A DNA stretch of 29,990 nt from a virus. Position 1 is the stretch's first letter; every line of letters begins with the position of its first letter. The notes under the pieces were generated by a model. That model did not search any database. It saw only the letters and a program-made list of their open reading frames with translations, and was not told the DNA's origin. Shown here piece after piece: positions 11,112-28,756 of this stretch. A program made the position numbers and the translations under genes. The DNA lies in IMG/VR virus record IMGVR_UViG_3300046660_000261, positions 1 through 29,990 of that record; one strand, 5' to 3'.

Positions 11112-11199
11112 GTTCATCATCCTGGCCGTCCTGGCGGCCCTCGGAGGGTTCGAGATGGCCCTCTTCATTTCCCAAAAAGTAGCAGAAGCCTCGGTGTAA
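11083..11199 (+). CDS. 38-residue single-span membrane protein
   Basis: The ATG at 11083 overlaps the end of the basic protein gene. The product METRVTRTFEF is followed by IILAVLAALGGFEMALFI, a clear transmembrane segment, and a short polar tail. The TAA stop lies in the loop of the terminator hairpin that follows, so gene end and terminator are fused. Function unknown. Confidence 0.5.
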   Translation: METRVTRTFEFIILAVLAALGGFEMALFISQKVAEASV

Positions 11200-11211
11200 A
11201 CCGGGGCTTTT
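11187..11211 (+). terminator. Rho-independent terminator
   Basis: AGCCTCGG (11187-11194), loop TGTAAA, then CCGGGGCT (11201-11208) running into TTTT. The stem is 8 bp with one G-U pair. It ends the transcript of the 10843 late unit and is followed at once by an early promoter. Confidence 0.8.
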
Positions 11212-11214
11212 CAG

Positions 11215-11243
11215 TTGACAAACGTCTAGAAATGAGTTATATC
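11215..11243 (+). promoter_or_regulatory. early promoter
   Basis: TTGACA (11215-11220), 17 nt, TATATC (11238-11243). RNA would start near 11250, inside the inverted repeat described next. Confidence 0.85.
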
Positions 11244-11244
11244 T

Positions 11245-11269: not shown

Positions 11270-12259
11270 ATGAGAATTTTGTTCGAGACCGTCTTCGGCT
11301 CGCACCTCTACGGTACGAGCACGCCGACTTCTGACCACGACTTCAAGGGCGTCTACCTCCCTTCTGCGCGGGAGATACTCCTGCCGAAGACTCCCGACGT
11401 GAAGACCTTCAACACCGGCTCCTCGTCCGTGAAGAACACCGCCGAGGACGTCGACCGCGAGCTCTACTCGCTCCACAAGTTCTTCGACATGCTCATCAAG
11501 GGCGACATGAACGCCTACGAGATGCTGTTCGCTCCGCATGACGGGTCGTCCATTGACTGGAACCACATCGTGAAGAACCGCGACAGGATGCTCACGCGCG
11601 AGTGCAGGGGCTTCGTCGGCTACGTGCAGCGCCAGGCCGCGACCTACGGGGTGCGCGGTGAGAGGTTCAACGAGGTGCAAGCCCTCGTGGACCACCTGCT
11701 GAACGAGCTGTGGGGCTACAACACCGGAACGAAGCTCCAAGACGTCCCCGGAGTGGAGCAGAAACTCAAGGCGTTCTGCGAGGGCAAGCTGTTCACGTCG
11801 TGGGAACTCATCACTAACAACGGACGTGAGTTGTTCCACCTCGTGTGCTGCGACCGAAAAGTTCCCCTGTCGGCGACGATCAAGACCGCGCTCGACGTGT
11901 ACTCGAGGGTCCTGGACAACTACGGCGCCCGCGCCCGCGCCGCTGCGACCAACGAGGGGCTCGACTGGAAAGCCGTCTCCCACGCAGTCCGCATCGGCGA
12001 GCAGGCGGTAGACCTCCTAATGACCGGCGAGATCGTCTTCCCTCGACCGAACGCTGAGCGTCTCAAAGCGATCAAGCGCGGCGAGGTGCCCTACGACGAG
12101 ATCGCACCGTACCTCGACTACCTGCTCGAGACGGTCGAGCAGCTCGGACACAGCTCGACTCTGCCGGCAAAGCCGGACGTCGAGTTCATGGACAACCTGA
12201 GGAACGACCACTACGAGTGGGAAGTCATCCGGAACAGGATCGGAGGCAGGAATGGCTGA
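11270..12259 (+). CDS. RlaP-like nucleotidyltransferase (pol beta superfamily)
   Basis: A 329-residue protein. The N-terminal GSHLYGTSTPTSDHDFKGVY (residues 10-29) is the pol-beta-type active site: GS motif plus the metal-binding aspartates D22 and D24. This arrangement is typical of the RlaP group, named for its association with RNA ligases. The rest is helical (substrate-binding domain) and lacks the second-half motifs of CCA enzymes. It has its own early promoter and an operator-like palindrome, so it may be tightly regulated. With the CCA enzyme and ligase-like protein downstream it could serve RNA repair; the substrate is not known. Confidence 0.8.
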   Translation: MRILFETVFGSHLYGTSTPTSDHDFKGVYLPSAREILLPKTPDVKTFNTGSSSVKNTAEDVDRELYSLHKFFDMLIKGDMNAYEMLFAPHDGSSIDWNHIVKNRDRMLTRECRGFVGYVQRQAATYGVRGERFNEVQALVDHLLNELWGYNTGTKLQDVPGVEQKLKAFCEGKLFTSWELITNNGRELFHLVCCDRKVPLSATIKTALDVYSRVLDNYGARARAAATNEGLDWKAVSHAVRIGEQAVDLLMTGEIVFPRPNAERLKAIKRGEVPYDEIAPYLDYLLETVEQLGHSSTLPAKPDVEFMDNLRNDHYEWEVIRNRIGGRNG

Positions 12260-13355: not shown

Positions 13356-14312
13356 ATGGCACACGAATTGGAATTCATCGACGGCAAGGCGGCTATTGCG
13401 TACGCCGGTGAGGTACCCTGGCACGGCCTCGGAAAGCCTGTCCCGGCCGACCTGACTCCCACGCAGATGCTCGAGGCCGCCCAGCTTGACTGGTCGGTCG
13501 TGAAGGTCCCGCTCTTCGCGGAACGGAACGGCAAGAGGCTCCCCACGAGCCGCTCGGCACTCGTCCGCGACAGGGACGACCGGGTACTCGACGTCATCTC
13601 CAACGACTGGGAGCCGGTCCAGAACGCTGAGGCCTTCGGCTTCTTCCACGACTGGGTCATGGCAGGCGACATGGAGATGAACACCGCCGGCTCGCTCCGC
13701 GGAGGCCGGATGATCTGGGCGCTCGCCAAGATCAAGGACGGCGCCTTCGACGCGGTCAAGGGAGACAAGGTGGAGTCCTTCCTCCTCTTCTCCAACCCGC
13801 ACCAGTACGGACGCTCCATCGAGGTCCGGGCGACGAACATCCGGGTGGTCTGCAACAACACGCTGACCTACGCCCTCTCCAAGAAGGCGAACAGCATGAT
13901 CCGGCTGAACCACTCGAGGAAGTTCGACGCCGAGATGGTCAAGGAGACCCTGGGCTTCACCAAGGCGAACACCGAGATCTACAAGGAGCGCTCGCGGTTC
14001 CTCGCCACGAAGCACTGCACGAAGGAGCAGATCCACGAGTACCTCAACCGGCTCTTCCCGATCGGCGAGGGCTCGGTACGCCCCGACCGCGACTTCACGA
14101 AGCCGGCCAAGGTGGTGTACGACGTCATCGAGACCCAGCCCGGAGCCAACCTGGCGCCCGGTACGTTCTGGAACCTCTTCAACGCGGTGACCTACGCCAC
14201 CGACCACAAGCTCGGCATCTCGGCCGACACCCGGCTGGACTCCTCGTGGTTCGGCCGGTACCAGCAGAAGAAGATCGAAGCACTCCAGATCGCCCTCGAG
14301 ATGGCGGCCTGA
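13356..14312 (+). CDS. DUF932 phage/plasmid-like protein
   Basis: A 318-residue protein. The opening ELEFIDGKAAIAYAGEVPWHGLG, with VPADLTPTQMLEAA, is the signature of DUF932 proteins, which are common in phages and plasmids and whose function is unresolved. VVCNNTLTYAL near residue 170 is another family block. The ATG at 13356 follows AAAGGAGAG; an upstream in-frame ATG at 13317 lies within the promoter and cannot be used. A strong dedicated early promoter and a hairpin behind it make this a single-gene early unit. Confidence 0.85.
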   Translation: MAHELEFIDGKAAIAYAGEVPWHGLGKPVPADLTPTQMLEAAQLDWSVVKVPLFAERNGKRLPTSRSALVRDRDDRVLDVISNDWEPVQNAEAFGFFHDWVMAGDMEMNTAGSLRGGRMIWALAKIKDGAFDAVKGDKVESFLLFSNPHQYGRSIEVRATNIRVVCNNTLTYALSKKANSMIRLNHSRKFDAEMVKETLGFTKANTEIYKERSRFLATKHCTKEQIHEYLNRLFPIGEGSVRPDRDFTKPAKVVYDVIETQPGANLAPGTFWNLFNAVTYATDHKLGISADTRLDSSWFGRYQQKKIEALQIALEMAA

Positions 14313-16004: not shown

Positions 16005-17495
16005 ATGCTAAAATTTTATACGAACGTCGCCCACTGGGGCGGACGAGTACGCGTCCGTGGATGGAACAACGGCCGCCGCTTTCAAGAGTCTATCCCCTAC
16101 AAGCCGTACCTCTTCACTCGCTCGAGGAACCTCGAGTCGACGACGAGCTACAGGACCCTCCGAGGCCAGCCAGTAGAGAAGGTCGACTTCGACTCTATCT
16201 ACGACGCCAAGGAGTTCGTCGAGAGGTACGACGAGGTCCACAACTTCGAGGTCTACGGGTCGACTAACTGGCCGTACGTGTACCTCTATGACGAGTACCG
16301 GGACGTGCCTTACGACCCGAAGCAGATCAGCGTGGTCAACGTCGACATCGAAGTCGGAGCCGATGAGTTCCCCGACCCCTGGAAGGCCGACTGGCCGATC
16401 ACCGCGATCACCATCGAGAAGAACAAGAAGGTCTACTCGCTGGGGCTCATGCCGTACGAGCCGAGCCTGCCGAACGTCACTTACATCCTGTGTAAGAACG
16501 AGAACGACCTCCTCGACAAGTTCATCCAGATCTGGCTCAACTTCGACCCCGACGTGGTGACCGGCTGGAACATCGACTACTTCGACATCCCGTACATCGT
16601 GAACCGCGTCAAGAAGCTGCTCGGCGACGACTCCGTCCTGCTGCTCTCGCCGTGGAAGAAGATCAAAGAGAGCACGGTGTTCTACCACGGGTCCAACAAG
16701 ACCCTGTACGAGCTCGTGGGCATCACGTCCCTCGACTACCTCCCGCTCTACAAGAAGTTCTCGTTCTCCAACGAGGAGTCCTACCGACTCGACAACATCG
16801 CGTTCGTGGTGATCGGCGAGAAGAAGCTGGACTACTCCGAGTACGAGTCGCTCAACGACCTCTACAAGAACGACTTCAAGAAGTACATGGACTACAACAT
16901 CCACGACGTCATGCTGGTGTCGCGGATCAACGACAAGCTCGGGTTCATCGAGCAGGTATTCGCCATCGCGTACGACTCCCTGGTCAACTTCGCTGACACG
17001 TTCACGTCGGTGAAGATCTGGGAGATCATCATGCACAACTACCTGCTCGGACAGGGCATCGTGTCGCCGCCCAAGAAGCACTCCATGAAGGAGAAGCAGA
17101 TCGCGGGCGGGTACGTCAAGGAGCCCATCACGGGCCGACATGAGTGGGTGGCGAGCTTCGACTTGAACTCCCTGTACCCGCACCTGATCATGCAGTACAA
17201 CATATCGCCCGAGACGTTCGTCGACGTGCTGGACGAGCTGCCGTCGGACGAAACTTCACCGGACCGGATCATCAACGGCTTCATGAACGACGAGAGGCAG
17301 GCCCAGCTGAGGGAGGCCAACCTCGCACTGACTGCCGGCGGCGCCCTCTACTCCCGTGAGAAGCAGGGCTTCGTGCCGGTCCTCATGGAGCAGATGTACA
17401 ACGACCGATCGAAGTTCAAGTCCATGATGATCGAAGAGAAACAGAACCTAGAGGCCATAGAGGCCGAGATGAAGAAGAGAGGCATACTCACGTGA
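16005..17495 (+). CDS. 43A: DNA polymerase gp43, N-terminal fragment (exonuclease and motif A)
   Basis: 496 residues of a T4-type family B polymerase. MLKFYTNVAHWG and VPYKPYLF-like IPYKPYLFTRS open the N-terminal domain. The 3'-5' exonuclease has Exo I VDIE (D114, E116), Exo II GWNIDYFDIPY (187-197) and Exo III Y297-D301. Palm motif A is DLNSLYPHL (386-394). The frame stops after MKKRGILT, in the fingers region, before motif B, so this half alone cannot polymerise but could be an exonuclease. It must pair with the fragment from 18253 (together about 862 residues; T4: 898). There is no ribosome site before the ATG, and the promoter places the RNA start on the ATG itself, so translation may be leaderless. 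Confidence 0.95.
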   Translation: MLKFYTNVAHWGGRVRVRGWNNGRRFQESIPYKPYLFTRSRNLESTTSYRTLRGQPVEKVDFDSIYDAKEFVERYDEVHNFEVYGSTNWPYVYLYDEYRDVPYDPKQISVVNVDIEVGADEFPDPWKADWPITAITIEKNKKVYSLGLMPYEPSLPNVTYILCKNENDLLDKFIQIWLNFDPDVVTGWNIDYFDIPYIVNRVKKLLGDDSVLLLSPWKKIKESTVFYHGSNKTLYELVGITSLDYLPLYKKFSFSNEESYRLDNIAFVVIGEKKLDYSEYESLNDLYKNDFKKYMDYNIHDVMLVSRINDKLGFIEQVFAIAYDSLVNFADTFTSVKIWEIIMHNYLLGQGIVSPPKKHSMKEKQIAGGYVKEPITGRHEWVASFDLNSLYPHLIMQYNISPETFVDVLDELPSDETSPDRIINGFMNDERQAQLREANLALTAGGALYSREKQGFVPVLMEQMYNDRSKFKSMMIEEKQNLEAIEAEMKKRGILT

Positions 17496-18199: not shown

Positions 18200-18228
18200 T
18201 TTACATTCTCGACGGAATAGTTTATACT
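18200..18228 (+). promoter_or_regulatory. early promoter of the DNA polymerase C-terminal gene
   Basis: TTTACA (18200-18205), 17 nt, TATACT (18223-18228). RNA would start near 18235, a few bases before AAGGA (18240-18244). The TTTACATTCTCGA-type -35 region and AAGGA leader resemble the cassettes at 10367, 26842 and 27285. Confidence 0.85.
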
Positions 18229-18252: not shown

Positions 18253-19353
18253 ATCGACTACTCAACTCTGACCGACGCAGAGCTCAAAACTCTGCGCCGT
18301 GAGACTGAAGTCAAGGTCTCTAAGTATCACAACATCCAGCTCGCCAAGAAGATCCTGCTGAACTCCTGCTACGGCGCTATGAGTAACCAGTACTTCCTGT
18401 ACTACTCAGACGTCCTGGCCGAGAGCATCACGTTGTCCGGCCAGCTCTCGATCAAGTGGATCGCGAAGAAGTTCAACGAGTACCTCAACCGGGTGCTCAA
18501 GACGGACGGAGTTGACTACGTCCTCGCGGTCGACACAGACTCCAACTACATCAAGCTCGACCTGCTCGTCAAGAAAGTCTTCGGCGAGACCTCCGACAAG
18601 GAGAAGGTCGTCAACTTCGTGGACAAGTTCTGTCGTGAAGTCCTCGAGCCCTACGTCGAAGAGTCGTACCAAGAGCTCGCCGACATGATGAACGCGTTCT
18701 CCCAGAAGATGAAGATGAAGCGCGAGAACATCGCGGACGTCGCCATCTGGACGGGCAAGAAGAAGTACGTCATGAACGTGTGGGACTCCGAGAACGTGCG
18801 GTACAAGGAGCCCAAGGTCAAGATGACTGGCATCGAGGCCGTGCGGTCCAACACCCCGTACGTCTGCCGCGAGTACATCAAGAAGTCGATCAGCATCATC
18901 ATGAACGGCACCGAGGAGCAGCTCCACGAGTACGTCGCGAAGTGCCGGGACGAGTTCTCGAAGATGCGCTTCGAGGAGGTCGGCAAGCCGTCAGGCGTCA
19001 ACGGGATGCGTGACTACGCCGACAAGCACACCGTCTACCGCAAGGGCACCCCGATGCACGTCCGGGCCGCGCTGGTCTACAACGCGACCATCAAGGAGCA
19101 CGGCCTCGACAAGAAGTTCCCGCTGATCAACGACGGCGACAAGATCAAGTTCACGTACATGAAGGTCCCGAACCCGATCCGTGAGAACGTCTTCGCGGTC
19201 TCGTCGTCCCTGCCGCCGAGCCTCAACCTCGAGCAGTACATCGACTACGAGACGCAGTTCGACAAGACGTTCATAAGCCCACTCAACATCATCCTGAAAG
19301 AGATCGATTGGTCGTACGAGAAGCGGCTGTCGTTAGAGGAGTTTTTCTCATGA
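18253..19353 (+). CDS. 43B: DNA polymerase gp43, C-terminal fragment (motifs B and C)
   Basis: About 366 residues completing the polymerase. Motif B is AKKILLNSCYG (31-41 counted from 18253), motif C is VDTDSNY (D94, D96), then WTGKKKYVMNVWD and a C-terminal SLEEFF that resembles the clamp-binding tail of T4 gp43. The only early ATG (18379) falls after motif B and would remove the catalytic lysine, so it cannot be the start of a working enzyme. Upstream the frame is open to the TAA at 18193 with no ATG, GTG or TTG. AUC at 18253 is 8 nt after AAGGA, where sister leaders have ATG, so I take it as the likely start; CTG at 18268 is an alternative. Identity is sure, start is not. Confidence 0.88.
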   Translation: MDYSTLTDAELKTLRRETEVKVSKYHNIQLAKKILLNSCYGAMSNQYFLYYSDVLAESITLSGQLSIKWIAKKFNEYLNRVLKTDGVDYVLAVDTDSNYIKLDLLVKKVFGETSDKEKVVNFVDKFCREVLEPYVEESYQELADMMNAFSQKMKMKRENIADVAIWTGKKKYVMNVWDSENVRYKEPKVKMTGIEAVRSNTPYVCREYIKKSISIIMNGTEEQLHEYVAKCRDEFSKMRFEEVGKPSGVNGMRDYADKHTVYRKGTPMHVRAALVYNATIKEHGLDKKFPLINDGDKIKFTYMKVPNPIRENVFAVSSSLPPSLNLEQYIDYETQFDKTFISPLNIILKEIDWSYEKRLSLEEFFS

Positions 19354-24106: not shown

Positions 24107-24532
24107 ATGTTCACCGGCATCCAGTCCTACCTAGTCGCCGGCCTCGCGGTCCTCATCCTCCTCTCAGGCGTAGGCTTCTACGTCTACAAGAAGACTATGG
24201 ACGCTGAGGTCGCACAGCTGACTGCCGACAAGGCACAGCTCCAGTCCAACGTGGACAAGCTCAACCTGGCCGTCTCGCTCAACGAGCAGACGATCCAGTA
24301 CCAGAAAGACCAGGCCGCCAAGCAGGCCGACGCCAACCTGGCGCTCTCGAAGTCCCTGTCGGACGCCGAGGCCCAGAACTTCGCTACGGTCTCGAAGAAC
24401 AAAGACCAGGACCTCGTGGCGCAGTCCCTCGCAGACCCCGACGCGGTCGAGAAAGATATCAATGAAGAATACGGTGCTTCCAATGACTCGCTCACTTCTG
24501 CTTCTGGCGCTCCTGTCCCTGTCGCTAAGTAA
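24107..24532 (+). CDS. inner-membrane spanin candidate (i-spanin)
   Basis: A 141-residue protein. One N-terminal transmembrane segment (YLVAGLAVLILLSGVGFYVY, about 7-26) is followed by a long Gln/Ala-rich coiled coil (AQLTADKAQLQSNVDKLNLA and on to about 100), the layout of Rz-type i-spanins that span the periplasm and fuse the membranes at lysis. It directly follows the endolysin stop and overlaps the lipoprotein gene by 71 nt, as Rz/Rz1 genes do. The call rests on topology and context, not sequence identity. Confidence 0.75.
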   Translation: MFTGIQSYLVAGLAVLILLSGVGFYVYKKTMDAEVAQLTADKAQLQSNVDKLNLAVSLNEQTIQYQKDQAAKQADANLALSKSLSDAEAQNFATVSKNKDQDLVAQSLADPDAVEKDINEEYGASNDSLTSASGAPVPVAK

Positions 24533-24830
24533 CTGCGCCTCGACCGGTCAGGTCGCTAAGGTACAGGTCACCACGACTCCGATCTCCCGGAACGTGACGA
24601 TACAGCCACACCCACGCGCAGTCCAGCTGAAGAACCCGAAGTGGTACGTCATCACTGACAAGAACTACAACGACTTCAAGAAGAAGTTCCTCGCGAACAA
24701 CAAGGACTTCGTCGTCTACGGTGTCTCGCCCGAGGACTTCAAGAAGCTGCTGAACAACCAGGCCGAGCTGCTCCGCTACATTCGCCAGCAGAACGCCACC
24801 ATCCTCTACTACGAGAAGACCGTCAACTAA
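24462..24830 (+). CDS. outer-membrane spanin candidate (lipoprotein, o-spanin)
   Basis: A 122-residue protein with a lipoprotein signal: MTRSLLLLALLSLSLSNC, with the lipobox ending SNC. I give the ATG at 24462; the ATG at 24483 gives a cleaner signal peptide. The mature part (KWYVITDKNYNDFKKKFLAN and LLRYIRQQNATILYYEKTV) is larger than classical Rz1 but of a type seen next to phage i-spanins. The partial nesting within the i-spanin gene in another frame strongly supports the spanin pair. Confidence 0.75.
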   Translation: MKNTVLPMTRSLLLLALLSLSLSNCASTGQVAKVQVTTTPISRNVTIQPHPRAVQLKNPKWYVITDKNYNDFKKKFLANNKDFVVYGVSPEDFKKLLNNQAELLRYIRQQNATILYYEKTVN

Positions 24831-25505: not shown

Positions 25506-26795
25506 ATGGAACTCACAGACGAACAGAAGACTGCCGCGGGCGACATGATCGCGGTCTTGACGAAGGCCCTGGAGGTGACGGTAGTCCCCGCCCCGGCCTT
25601 CAACTACGTGGGACTCACGGTGACCGTGTACGACGCGTTCGTCGAAGCCGGCGAGCGGACCGTGCTCGTGCCGGTCGCGCTCAGCGCTCCGGCCGAACAG
25701 ACCATGGTGATCCGGTACCTGAGCCAGAACGGCACCGCGGTCGAGAACTTTCAGTACAGCCGAGCCGACGGGTACCTCTCCTTCCAGCCCGGAGAGCAGG
25801 TCAAGTCAGTCCCGGTCAAGCTGCTCCAGGACCTCGGCACTAAGAAGTTCACCCTCATCCTCGGGTGGGCGCAGAACAGCCCTCCCCTCACCCTGTCTCG
25901 CAGCACGGCGACGATCTCGGGTGACCGCTCAAACCTCACCGTCACCTACCCCGGCGCAGCCCTCCCGAAGGTGTCAGCGCTCTCTCCGCGGCCGGCCAAC
26001 CTCTCACTCGCGTTCGTCGAGAAGTTCACGTCGTTCGCTGCGAGCGACAGCGGCTTCAAGGCCGACGGCACCCCCTGCTGGAGGACGCGACTGAACCAGG
26101 GACGCACCCAGGCCGGCAACCGTGAAGTGGGCTACTACGCTGACTCGACGGTGAACCCGAACACGACTCCCTACTCGATAGTCTCGGGCAAGCTGGTGCT
26201 CAACTCGGCGTACCACCCCGAGGGCGTGCTCGACGTCAACGGCGCGCAGATACCGTGCCCTTGGGACGTGGTCAACAACGTCATCCAGCCGTTCAAGTAC
26301 TCGGCCAGCATCGTCACGACCGAGAAGAACTTCGGCACGATCCGTCGCGGCTCCTACGTCGAGGCGAAGATGACCATGCCCCTGGCACAGGGTTCCTGGC
26401 CGGCTTTCTGGATGGTCGCGACCGACCAGTCCTGGCCGTCCATCGAGCTCGACATGTTCGAGGGGTTCTTCTCTACGGCAGGCACGCTCGACCAGGTCGG
26501 AACGACCGTGCACTGGAAGGACGCCGCCACGGGGAACCACACGCTGTTCTCGTCACGACTCAAGCAGCTGGGCATCGACGTCGCCGTCGCCCACGTCTGG
26601 GGAGTCTACTGGGGAGACGACGAGGTGGTCTTCTACTGCGACGACGTGCCGTACTTCGCTGTCCCGAACGTGTTCCCCGACAAGGACTGCTACCTGCAGA
26701 TCAACATCGCGGTGGGTGGCCTGGTGACCAAGCCGGCCGTCCCAACTTCTTACTCGGCCCAGATGCCGATCGAGTGGGTGAAGGTCTGGCAGTGA
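25506..26795 (+). CDS. GH16 endoglycanase (exopolysaccharide depolymerase candidate) with Calx-beta-like domain
   Basis: A 429-residue protein. The N-terminal 25-140 region is Calx-beta-like (NGTAVENFQYSRADGYLSF and FQPGEQVKSVPVKL), a beta-sandwich often used for attachment. The C-terminal region is a GH16 jelly roll with the catalytic motif ELDMFE (E314, D316, E319; family pattern ExDxxE) and GSWPAFWMV upstream of it. GH16 enzymes cut beta-glucans; rhizobial ExoK and ExsH cut succinoglycan. No signal peptide is visible, so it is probably virion-bound or freed at lysis. I prefer the ATG at 25506, after GAGGA. Target polysaccharide is inference. Confidence 0.88.
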   Translation: MELTDEQKTAAGDMIAVLTKALEVTVVPAPAFNYVGLTVTVYDAFVEAGERTVLVPVALSAPAEQTMVIRYLSQNGTAVENFQYSRADGYLSFQPGEQVKSVPVKLLQDLGTKKFTLILGWAQNSPPLTLSRSTATISGDRSNLTVTYPGAALPKVSALSPRPANLSLAFVEKFTSFAASDSGFKADGTPCWRTRLNQGRTQAGNREVGYYADSTVNPNTTPYSIVSGKLVLNSAYHPEGVLDVNGAQIPCPWDVVNNVIQPFKYSASIVTTEKNFGTIRRGSYVEAKMTMPLAQGSWPAFWMVATDQSWPSIELDMFEGFFSTAGTLDQVGTTVHWKDAATGNHTLFSSRLKQLGIDVAVAHVWGVYWGDDEVVFYCDDVPYFAVPNVFPDKDCYLQINIAVGGLVTKPAVPTSYSAQMPIEWVKVWQ

Positions 26796-26799
26796 CCCT

Positions 26800-26847
26800 A
26801 CAAAAATTTTAAAAGAAAGAGGCCTCCGGGCCTCTTTTTCGTTTACA
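26800..26847 (+). repeat. terminator-promoter cassette, copy 1 (48-bp direct repeat)
   Basis: 48 bases that recur at 27243-27290 with one mismatch (26807 versus 27250). The repeat covers an A/T-rich run, the terminator hairpin and the -35 box TTTACA of the next promoter. Confidence 0.95.
26816..26839 (+). terminator. strong, possibly bidirectional Rho-independent terminator
   Basis: AAAGAGGCC, loop TCCG, GGCCTCTTT followed by TT: a 9-bp stem ending in a T-run, with an A-run before it. It ends the late transcript of the depolymerase. Confidence 0.93.
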
Positions 26848-26870
26848 TCCTCTCCGAAGTGGTATATCTT
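26842..26870 (+). promoter_or_regulatory. early promoter
   Basis: TTTACA (26842-26847), then TATCTT (26865-26870) at 17 nt or TATATC (26863) at 15 nt. The leader (ATCAAATCGGAAAGGAACGC, then ACAATG) is close to that at 10399. Confidence 0.75.
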
Positions 26871-26899
26871 TAAATTATCAAATCGGAAAGGAACGCACA

Positions 26900-27238
26900 A
26901 TGAACAAGTTCAACGAAGTAATGAAGAACCGCTCTACCGGTAAGTTCTACGTGAAGGTGATGTTCCGCCCTCCAATGGAAGACATGTTCGAGACGATCAC
27001 TTCAGCGGCCCAGTTCGAGAACATCATCGATGCTAACCGCTACCTCGAACGAGTCAACGAAGCAGTCCGCAAGCTGAAGTGCTTCCAGTGCGCATACGAG
27101 GCCCTCGACCTCGCTAACTGGCTCTGGAGCGTTACTAAGGCTTCTCCATGTGGGTTCCTCCACGAGCCCTCAAAGGCCAAGGAGTACGTAGTCCCTACTT
27201 CGGATTACGCTAAGAAGCTGGTAGCTCGTTCTGACTGA
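26900..27238 (+). CDS. small phage protein, unknown
   Basis: A 112-residue protein (MNKFNEVMKNRSTGKFYVKV to YAKKLVARSD). It has a helical CFQCAYEALDLANWLWSV block with a CxxC and is framed on both sides by the repeated terminator-promoter cassette, making it a self-contained early unit. Codon use (TCT, GCT, AAG mixes) is somewhat less GC-biased than its neighbours. No known family. Confidence 0.7.
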   Translation: MNKFNEVMKNRSTGKFYVKVMFRPPMEDMFETITSAAQFENIIDANRYLERVNEAVRKLKCFQCAYEALDLANWLWSVTKASPCGFLHEPSKAKEYVVPTSDYAKKLVARSD

Positions 27239-27242
27239 TCCG

Positions 27243-27290
27243 ACAAAAACTTTAAAAGAAAGAGGCCTCCGGGCCTCTTTTTCGTTTACA
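27243..27290 (+). repeat. terminator-promoter cassette, copy 2 (48-bp direct repeat)
   Basis: Matches 26800-26847 at 47 of 48 bases. After TTTACA the copies diverge completely, each leading into its own -10 and gene. Confidence 0.95.
27259..27282 (+). terminator. strong, possibly bidirectional Rho-independent terminator
   Basis: Same hairpin as at 26816: AAAGAGGCC, TCCG, GGCCTCTTT, TT. It isolates the 26900 gene from the next unit. Confidence 0.93.
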
Positions 27291-27313
27291 ACGCATTCTC
27301 GATAGAATATAGT
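27285..27313 (+). promoter_or_regulatory. early promoter
   Basis: TTTACA (27285-27290), 17 nt, TATAGT (27308-27313). The leader has GGAAAGGA before the next ATG. Confidence 0.85.
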
Positions 27314-27338: not shown

Positions 27339-27521
27339 ATGCTCTCACTCATCATACTCTACGGCATATCCCTCGGTTCGATAGCCCTCGCCGTCCTCTT
27401 CGGCTCAGCACTCTTCAACAAGGAGATCACGCCGCAGGGCGCCTTCGTCGCAGTCGTCTTATTCATGGTCTGCCTCTGTATGGCGGCCGGAACAGCATTC
27501 CTCGCAGGAGTAGTATCATGA
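27339..27521 (+). CDS. small membrane protein with two transmembrane segments
   Basis: A 60-residue hydrophobic protein (MLSLIILYGISLGSIALAVL, then FVAVVLFMVCLCMAAGTAFL). The ATG at 27339 lies 8 nt after AAAGGAA; an in-frame ATG at 27312 falls in the promoter's -10 box and is excluded. It overlaps the CCA enzyme gene as ATGA. It could be an early inner-membrane protein (superinfection exclusion or holin-like), but this is open. Confidence 0.65.
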   Translation: MLSLIILYGISLGSIALAVLFGSALFNKEITPQGAFVAVVLFMVCLCMAAGTAFLAGVVS

Positions 27522-28756
27522 AGTTCTATAAAGTCGGCGGCTGCGTGCGGGACACCTTCATGAACGCTTACGCCAAAGACGTCGACTGGGTCGTCGTCGG
27601 CTCGTCCGAGCAGGAGATGCTGGACATGGGCTACAAGAAAGTCGGGGCTGACTTCCCGGTCTTCTTGCACCCCGTGACCGGCGAGGAGCACGCGCTGGCC
27701 CGAACCGAGAAGAAGAGCGGGAACGGCTACCACGGCTTCACGGTCGAGACCGAGGGTGTGTCTCTGGAGGACGACCTGCGCCGACGAGACCTGACCGTGA
27801 ACGCCATGGCGATGGCCGACGGCGTCCTGTACGACCCGTTCAACGGCGAGCGAGACCTGCGCGACGGCGTCCTGCGCCACGTCGACGACGAGGGCTTCAA
27901 GGAAGACCCGGTGCGCGTGCTGCGGCTGGCACGCTTCCTGTCGAGGTGGACTGACTTCGTTGTCCACAAGACAACCGTGAAGCTGTGCCGTGAGATGGTC
28001 GCGGCCGGCGAGCTGGCACACTTGACTCCCGAGCGAGTCTCGGCCGAGATGGTCAAGGCGCTGGGCGAGAAGAGGCCCTCACGGTTCTTCGTGTTCCTGC
28101 AGATGGTCGGCGCCCTGGAAGTCGTCTTCCCCGAGGTGCACCGACTGGTCGGAGTCCCTGCGGGCTCCTACGAGCACCACCCCGAGGGCGACTCGTTCAC
28201 TCACACCATGATGGTTCTGGACGAGGCCACGAAGGCCTCACATCACCCGCTGACGAGGTACTGCGCGCTGGTCCACGACCTGGGCAAGGGCACCACTCCG
28301 GCCGACGTGCTGCCGCACCACTACGGCCACGAGGCGCGCGGCTACTTCATAGCTCGAGACATGGCCGACCGGTTGAAGATGCCGTCGGAGTGGCGTCACG
28401 CCAGCGCGGTGGTGGCGAAGTACCACACCCACGTGCACAACTTCCACCTGCTGAAGGGCACGACGATAGCTGACATGGTCGACGACCTGCAGCTGCCAAA
28501 GTGCCCGGGTCTGGCGGAAATACTGCCGACCGTGTCCATGTGTGACTCTCGCGGTCGATCCAGCTTCTACTCCGACAGGGACTACCCGAACGCCGAGACT
28601 GCCAAGACAGTCATACGCGCCGTCTCGAAGGTGAAGCTGTCCGACGTGGTCGAAGACCCGGCCGAGATAGAGGCCATGCCGATAAACCGCCGCAAGGACG
28701 TGCTGCACAGGGCTAAGGCTGACGCGGCCAACATACACAGGAAGAAACATGTCTAA
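27518..28756 (+). CDS. cca: CCA-adding tRNA nucleotidyltransferase with HD domain
   Basis: A 412-residue class II enzyme that adds or repairs the CCA end of tRNA. GGCVRD (7-12) and the metal aspartates D21/D23 in KDVDWVVVG form the catalytic head; RRRDLTVNAM (88-97) and EDPVRVLRLARF (130-141) are the neck and base motifs. An HD phosphohydrolase domain follows (LVHDLGKG, H253-D254). Blocks such as QEMLDMGYKKVGADFPVFL and ELAHLTPERV match E. coli Cca closely, so this is the gammaproteobacterial type. It is coupled to the preceding membrane protein. Phage CCA enzymes probably maintain phage or damaged host tRNAs. Confidence 0.96.
   Translation: MKFYKVGGCVRDTFMNAYAKDVDWVVVGSSEQEMLDMGYKKVGADFPVFLHPVTGEEHALARTEKKSGNGYHGFTVETEGVSLEDDLRRRDLTVNAMAMADGVLYDPFNGERDLRDGVLRHVDDEGFKEDPVRVLRLARFLSRWTDFVVHKTTVKLCREMVAAGELAHLTPERVSAEMVKALGEKRPSRFFVFLQMVGALEVVFPEVHRLVGVPAGSYEHHPEGDSFTHTMMVLDEATKASHHPLTRYCALVHDLGKGTTPADVLPHHYGHEARGYFIARDMADRLKMPSEWRHASAVVAKYHTHVHNFHLLKGTTIADMVDDLQLPKCPGLAEILPTVSMCDSRGRSSFYSDRDYPNAETAKTVIRAVSKVKLSDVVEDPAEIEAMPINRRKDVLHRAKADAANIHRKKHV

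Follow-up and report, generated by a model that had tools for sequence, protein, structure and literature searches.

PeSLs, composites of a terminator stem-loop and an early sigma70 promoter between small genes of T4-type phages, were reportedly described by Arbiol et al. in 2010 and Comeau et al. in 2014. RB49 and Phi1 are said to be the pair of phages in which they were first described, and the 2010 paper reportedly describes mini-circles that arise when adjacent cassettes recombine. PMC4503421 and PMC3950731 likewise describe PeSLs of T4-type phages; in the latter, PeSL-like motifs consist of a TATA region and an inverted repeat. In T4-type phages, exchange through short homologies at intergenic signals is documented (PMC4177764), and the -35 element of T4 early promoters is GTTTAC (PMC1524935). 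Related systems are the hairpins that sequester the ribosome-binding sites of T4 genes e, soc, 49 and I-TevI (PMC3014915, PMC2988022) and the morons of lambdoid phages (PMC1524935).

The locus described here lies in a virus record of 29,990 nt (the window) and is PeSL-like, with terminator and promoter functions that are predicted. A single gene of 112 aa, termed X, is flanked by two repeated cassettes. Like a PeSL, each cassette is a composite of a terminator stem-loop and an early sigma70 promoter between small genes of a T4-type phage, is repeated, and is probably tied to gene gain or loss. Unlike the PeSL case, the hairpin is shared in two copies only, the virus has a probable rhizobial host and a GC content of 59%, and it is known from a single lineage.

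Results

The virus and its probable host

Comparison of the window with a 135,816-base IMG/VR contig (3300046507_000639) revealed 1 differing base in 29,990; this 135.8-kb contig was treated as a fuller assembly of the same virus, which adds no independent support. Pfam and PHROGs searches detected the T4-type core genes gp23 (phrog_138, 5e-160), gp20 (phrog_213, 4e-190), tail sheath, UvsX (C-domain) and UvsW. The nearest gp23 was that of Stenotrophomonas phage DLP6 (67%). The virus is T4-type on the evidence of gp23, gp20, UvsX and UvsW, which makes the comparison with PeSLs apt. The only phage relatives of the glycosyl hydrolase family 16 (GH16) gene upstream of the locus come from phages of Sinorhizobium and Rhizobium; the best matches of the CCA-adding enzyme downstream are rhizobial as well. 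The virus therefore probably infects a rhizobium, likely one of soil. Genes were called with an ad hoc codon-usage caller (199 genes); promoters and terminators were predicted from consensus.

Several features outside the locus were also observed. In the fuller assembly, 1 of 23 tRNA genes (11587-11661, minus strand) has the anticodon CTA, of amber-suppressor type, and was labelled tRNA-Pyl by ARAGORN. Family B DNA polymerase is encoded in two genes of the window, with a phrog_2062-like N half (16005-17495) and a phrog_1918-like C half (18379-19353); the halves are separated by a gene resembling a phosphoesterase (phrog_547) and by a promoter of early type near 18200. Directly 3′ of a chitinase-like lysis gene, two overlapping frames at 24107-24830 of the window, taken from the ORF list only, resemble an Rz/Rz1 spanin pair: one of 141 aa with an N-terminal membrane helix, and one of 122 aa with a lipoprotein-like signal.

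Table 1. Sequence features at the X locus and one further composite (positions in the window)
Feature	Position	Strand	Basis
Another composite: terminator hairpin (different stem), then early promoter TTGACA-17-TATATC	11188-11244	+	Terminator and promoter scans
Upstream gene ending at copy 1: Calx-beta and glycosyl hydrolase family 16 domains	25506-26795	+	Domain search; phage relatives only in Sinorhizobium/Rhizobium phages
Repeat copy 1: upstream-gene stop codon, A/T-rich run, terminator hairpin, -35 box	26793-26847	+	Repeat search, alignment
Predicted intrinsic terminator hairpin, copy 1: 11-bp stem, TCCG loop, T run	26814-26839	+	-17.8 kcal/mol, z -4.4 vs shuffles
X promoter and leader unit	26841-26899	+	91.5% over 59 nt vs 14143-14200 of reoriented 135.8-kb assembly
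Predicted early-type promoter of X: TTTACA-17-TATCTT, 9/12	26842-26870	+	Sigma70 consensus
Promoter-leader inverted repeat of X: spacer arm 26848-26864, leader arm 26876-26892	26848-26892	+	Duplex computation, folding
Gene X, 112 aa, no known family	26900-27238	+	Homology; relatives only in rhizobial phages (66-71% aa)
Repeat copy 2: X stop codon, A/T-rich run, terminator hairpin, -35 box	27236-27290	+	52/55 vs copy 1
Predicted intrinsic terminator hairpin, copy 2: same sequence as copy 1	27257-27282	+	-17.8 kcal/mol, z -4.3 vs shuffles
Predicted early-type promoter of 60-aa gene: TTTACA-17-TATAGT, 10/12; spacer and leader unlike copy 1	27285-27313	+	Sigma70 consensus
Small hydrophobic protein, 60 aa	27339-27521	+	Searches; no relatives found
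Downstream gene: CCA-adding tRNA nucleotidyltransferase	27518-28756	+	Domain and homology searches

A terminator repeat flanks gene X

The initial annotation described a 48-bp unit occurring twice, with one mismatch and 443 bp apart, around one small gene. Both copies are present as claimed (26800-26847 and 27243-27290) and form part of a 55-nt direct repeat with the same spacing, in which 52 of 55 positions are identical. Each copy begins at the stop codon of the preceding gene and ends with the -35 box TTTACA; the sequence on either side is unrelated between the copies. All three mismatches fall within the first 15 nt; the last 40 nt, including the hairpin and TTTACA, are identical. In a self-comparison of the fuller assembly the pair gave E = 2e-16. 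The recent duplication that had been suggested is plausible on the strength of the 40 identical nt.

Each copy contains the A/T-rich run, strong predicted hairpin terminator (z about -4.3) and -35 box that had been reported, and each leads into a predicted early promoter of sigma70 type (Table 1). A simple terminator scan skipped both hairpins because the stem takes in the T run; a modified scan detected both. The terminator half is common to the two cassettes and the promoter half differs, the switch being at the -35 box.

The only ORF between the copies is X, a real gene by homology. Profile searches assigned X to no Pfam or PHROGs family, and no relative was found in bacterial or archaeal genomes; the predicted structure was poor (mean pLDDT 51). 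X is a compositional outlier: its GC3 of 0.70 is the 7th lowest among the 199 called genes (gene mean 0.83; large neighbours 0.86-0.89). Searches with the 60-aa protein downstream gave no relatives. When viral contigs were searched for relatives of X, of the CCA-adding enzyme and of the GH16 protein, only the fuller assembly was returned, plus one 66% homologue of X (via alignment).

Recurrence of composites and cassettes

The initial annotation proposed a search of the genome and its relatives for the 48-bp unit. With up to 3 mismatches allowed, the 135.8-kb contig contained no third copy of the hairpin core, and the core was not found in the other T4-type phages searched. Viral contig scans with the exact repeat and with a looser hairpin-plus-promoter pattern returned only the fuller assembly of the same virus. 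Other terminators in the genome have stems unrelated to the repeat hairpin. With only two copies in the virus, the hairpin is therefore not a widely scattered element; what does recur is the promoter-leader half and the composite layout. The copy of the X promoter-leader unit at 14143-14200 of the reoriented assembly lies upstream of another gene, and weaker relatives occur at 83119, 135093 and other positions.

Composites were scanned for as a terminator no more than 45 nt upstream of an early promoter. They were found at 4 of the 25 promoters of the virus, relative to 0.13 in shuffles, and two of the four have other stems; a fifth, at 128589, was spotted by eye in the scan lists. In all, a terminator followed directly by an early promoter occurs, with different stems, at about three places in the virus besides the X locus. 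In RB49 and Phi1 the scan found composites at 6 of 67 and 6 of 63 promoters, respectively. The likeness to T-even PeSLs, first proposed from the window, is supported: the virus is T4-type, and both phages show the same architecture in the same scan.

A 116-nt inverted repeat (86% identical) was also observed at 60244-60359 and 105446-105561 of the reoriented assembly. Both copies carry a promoter that matches the consensus perfectly, TTGACA-17-TATAAT, and after it a stretch rich in hairpins; they may represent a non-coding RNA or a regulatory unit that was duplicated.

Gene X at cassettes of Rhizobium phages

Relatives of X were found in Rhizobium phages RHph_Y68 and RHph_N34 (Pootjesviridae; 70-71% aa) and, at 66%, in a metagenomic contig of 20 kb from the same group, in gene contexts unrelated to that of the window virus. 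The flanking genes of the X site are orthologous in eight phages; the downstream gene of the metagenomic contig was judged by its start. The site is occupied in the metagenomic contig (by X) and in Y68 (by gp247 and X), with a cassette on each side; it is empty, with one promoter cassette and no X, in six relatives (P10VF, AF3, RL2RES, RL38J1, I1_9 and N34). X in Y68 and the metagenomic contig sits between genes that are adjacent in relatives, and its junctions are at repeats. In N34, X is located elsewhere, at a second site: the match to I1_9 spans the cassette up to the X start codon, skips X, and resumes at the X stop. Roughly 15-25 such cassettes are present per Rhizobium phage genome. For phages other than the window virus, these comparisons are direct evidence that X comes and goes at repeated regulatory cassettes, and they are good evidence that X is a mobile gene. 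They also favour the earlier suggestion that cassettes of this kind spread and shuffle novel genes, in that X is common to distant rhizobial phages and lies at cassette-bounded sites there.

The Pootjesviridae promoter-leader cassettes (in Y68, N34, P10VF and others) resemble the window cassettes in flanking the X homologue and marking its junctions, in their T4-like early -35 (GTTTAC), and in spacer-leader complementarity. They differ in that the unit is a promoter plus a leader ending in CCACGGAG, mostly without a separate terminator in front, and they have no sequence identity to the window cassette. Because the repeat unit at the X site of the Rhizobium phages is promoter plus leader rather than terminator plus promoter, the parallel is one of logic and not of sequence.

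Spacer-leader complementarity of early promoters

The spacer of the X promoter is complementary to its own leader, and the leader arm spans the AGGA of the X ribosome-binding site (Table 1). This duplex (-16.4) was the strongest among the 25 promoters of the virus. Both arms are present in read-through RNA only. The read-through RNA was predicted to fold (-15.6 kcal/mol, z -2.6) so that the ribosome-binding site is covered, whereas the transcript of the X promoter itself did not fold in this way. Folding analysis of the copy 2 leader revealed no unusual read-through fold. As in T4 e, soc, 49 and I-TevI, the 5′ arm at X is upstream of its own start, and only read-through RNA is predicted to cover the Shine-Dalgarno sequence; however, the known cases are late genes (PMC2988022), and the X promoter is early-type.

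In T4-type phages the -35/-10 spacer often shows complementarity to the leader of the same promoter: matched duplexes were stronger than permuted ones in 10 of the 10 phages tested. The z value was -3.0 (p 0.002) in this virus, -9.0 in T4, -4.1 in RB49, -4.3 in Phi1, -4.0 in DLP6, -3.4 in phiM12, -1.9 in I1_18, -4.0 in Y68, and -5.5 in both P10VF and phiM9. When upstream sequence was substituted for the spacer, or gene start for the leader, the signal was gone, except that DLP6 retained a weaker residue and this virus a marginal one. Occlusion of the ribosome site as such is not the common factor: T4, phiM12 and phiM9 showed more of it than expected from permutation, whereas RB49 and this virus did not. 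The complementarity encloses the -10 element and is strongest in T4.

Early promoters of the T4 superfamily might, tentatively, carry a built-in insulator against read-through, a role that we propose from the complementarity. RNA from upstream would fold into a stem that encloses the -10, often over the ribosome-binding site, and RNA started at the promoter would have no 5′ arm and would be translated. PeSLs as published may already include this promoter-enclosing stem, because PMC3950731 describes a TATA region together with an inverted repeat.

Discussion

We interpret the repeats as PeSL-like cassettes of a T4-type phage, at one of which X was probably gained, or can be lost, by homologous recombination, and we assign this reading a probability of about 0.75. 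It is backed by data on the repeat, on the composite layout and its recurrence, on T4-type membership, and on the mobility of X with cassette-bounded junctions in other rhizobial phages. What we infer is that the terminators and promoters are active, that the crossover took place, and which way it went in the window virus. An intrinsic terminator would end the upstream transcript, and the strong host-sigma70 early promoter fused to it would begin the next, so that such 'stop then start' joints would make each gene an independent unit. Because the joints are repeated, they would also place short homology at gene borders for the phage recombination system. X and its promoter were most likely brought in, or are removable, through homologous recombination at a joint. 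In the simplest account, a promoter-X segment would have entered with one terminator unit, and a single crossover of that unit with the resident one would yield the observed order terminator, promoter, X, terminator, promoter.

Like the morons of lambdoid phages, X is a single gene with its own predicted promoter and terminator and deviant base composition (GC3), and it could have been inserted as such an autonomous unit by illegitimate recombination, the repeat being a by-product of terminator copying. This is improbable: illegitimate insertion does not predict a resident terminator upstream of X nearly identical to the one of X itself, the junctions of X in other phages lie at repeated cassettes, and the repeat at both ends of X points to homologous exchange. 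The T4-type genome is a further difference from the lambdoid morons. Alternatively, a terminator segment might simply have been duplicated, or one terminator converted to match the other by gene conversion, to serve regulation and with no tie to movement of X. The copies do have only the terminator half in common, with different promoter halves, and the other terminators of the genome are unrelated to it; however, the repeat brackets the one gene here that is both common to unrelated phages and compositionally odd, and we regard such an origin as quite improbable. GC-rich hairpins with T runs generally look alike, so that chance or convergent likeness of two terminators was also considered. 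Its probability is negligible in view of the 40 consecutive identical nt, which take in the loop and the -35 box, and of the different stems elsewhere in the genome; with E = 2e-16 and the 40-nt identity, chance similarity of the terminators is effectively refuted.

Recombination at PeSL-like joints, the reading we prefer, fits the existing idea that repeated switches serve as gene-swapping sites; the new element is the PeSL-like pair in this virus. With this finding, PeSL-like joints are also described from an uncultivated T4-type phage of high GC content, and a gene common to distant phages is tied, in several genomes, to junctions that lie at cassettes. X is a ready marker for tests of accessory-gene movement between T4-type phages. 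If the insulator proposal is true, the combination of an upstream terminator and a spacer-leader stem would make every early gene a plug-in whose expression is independent of its landing place, and this would explain how genes are correctly expressed after landing anywhere.
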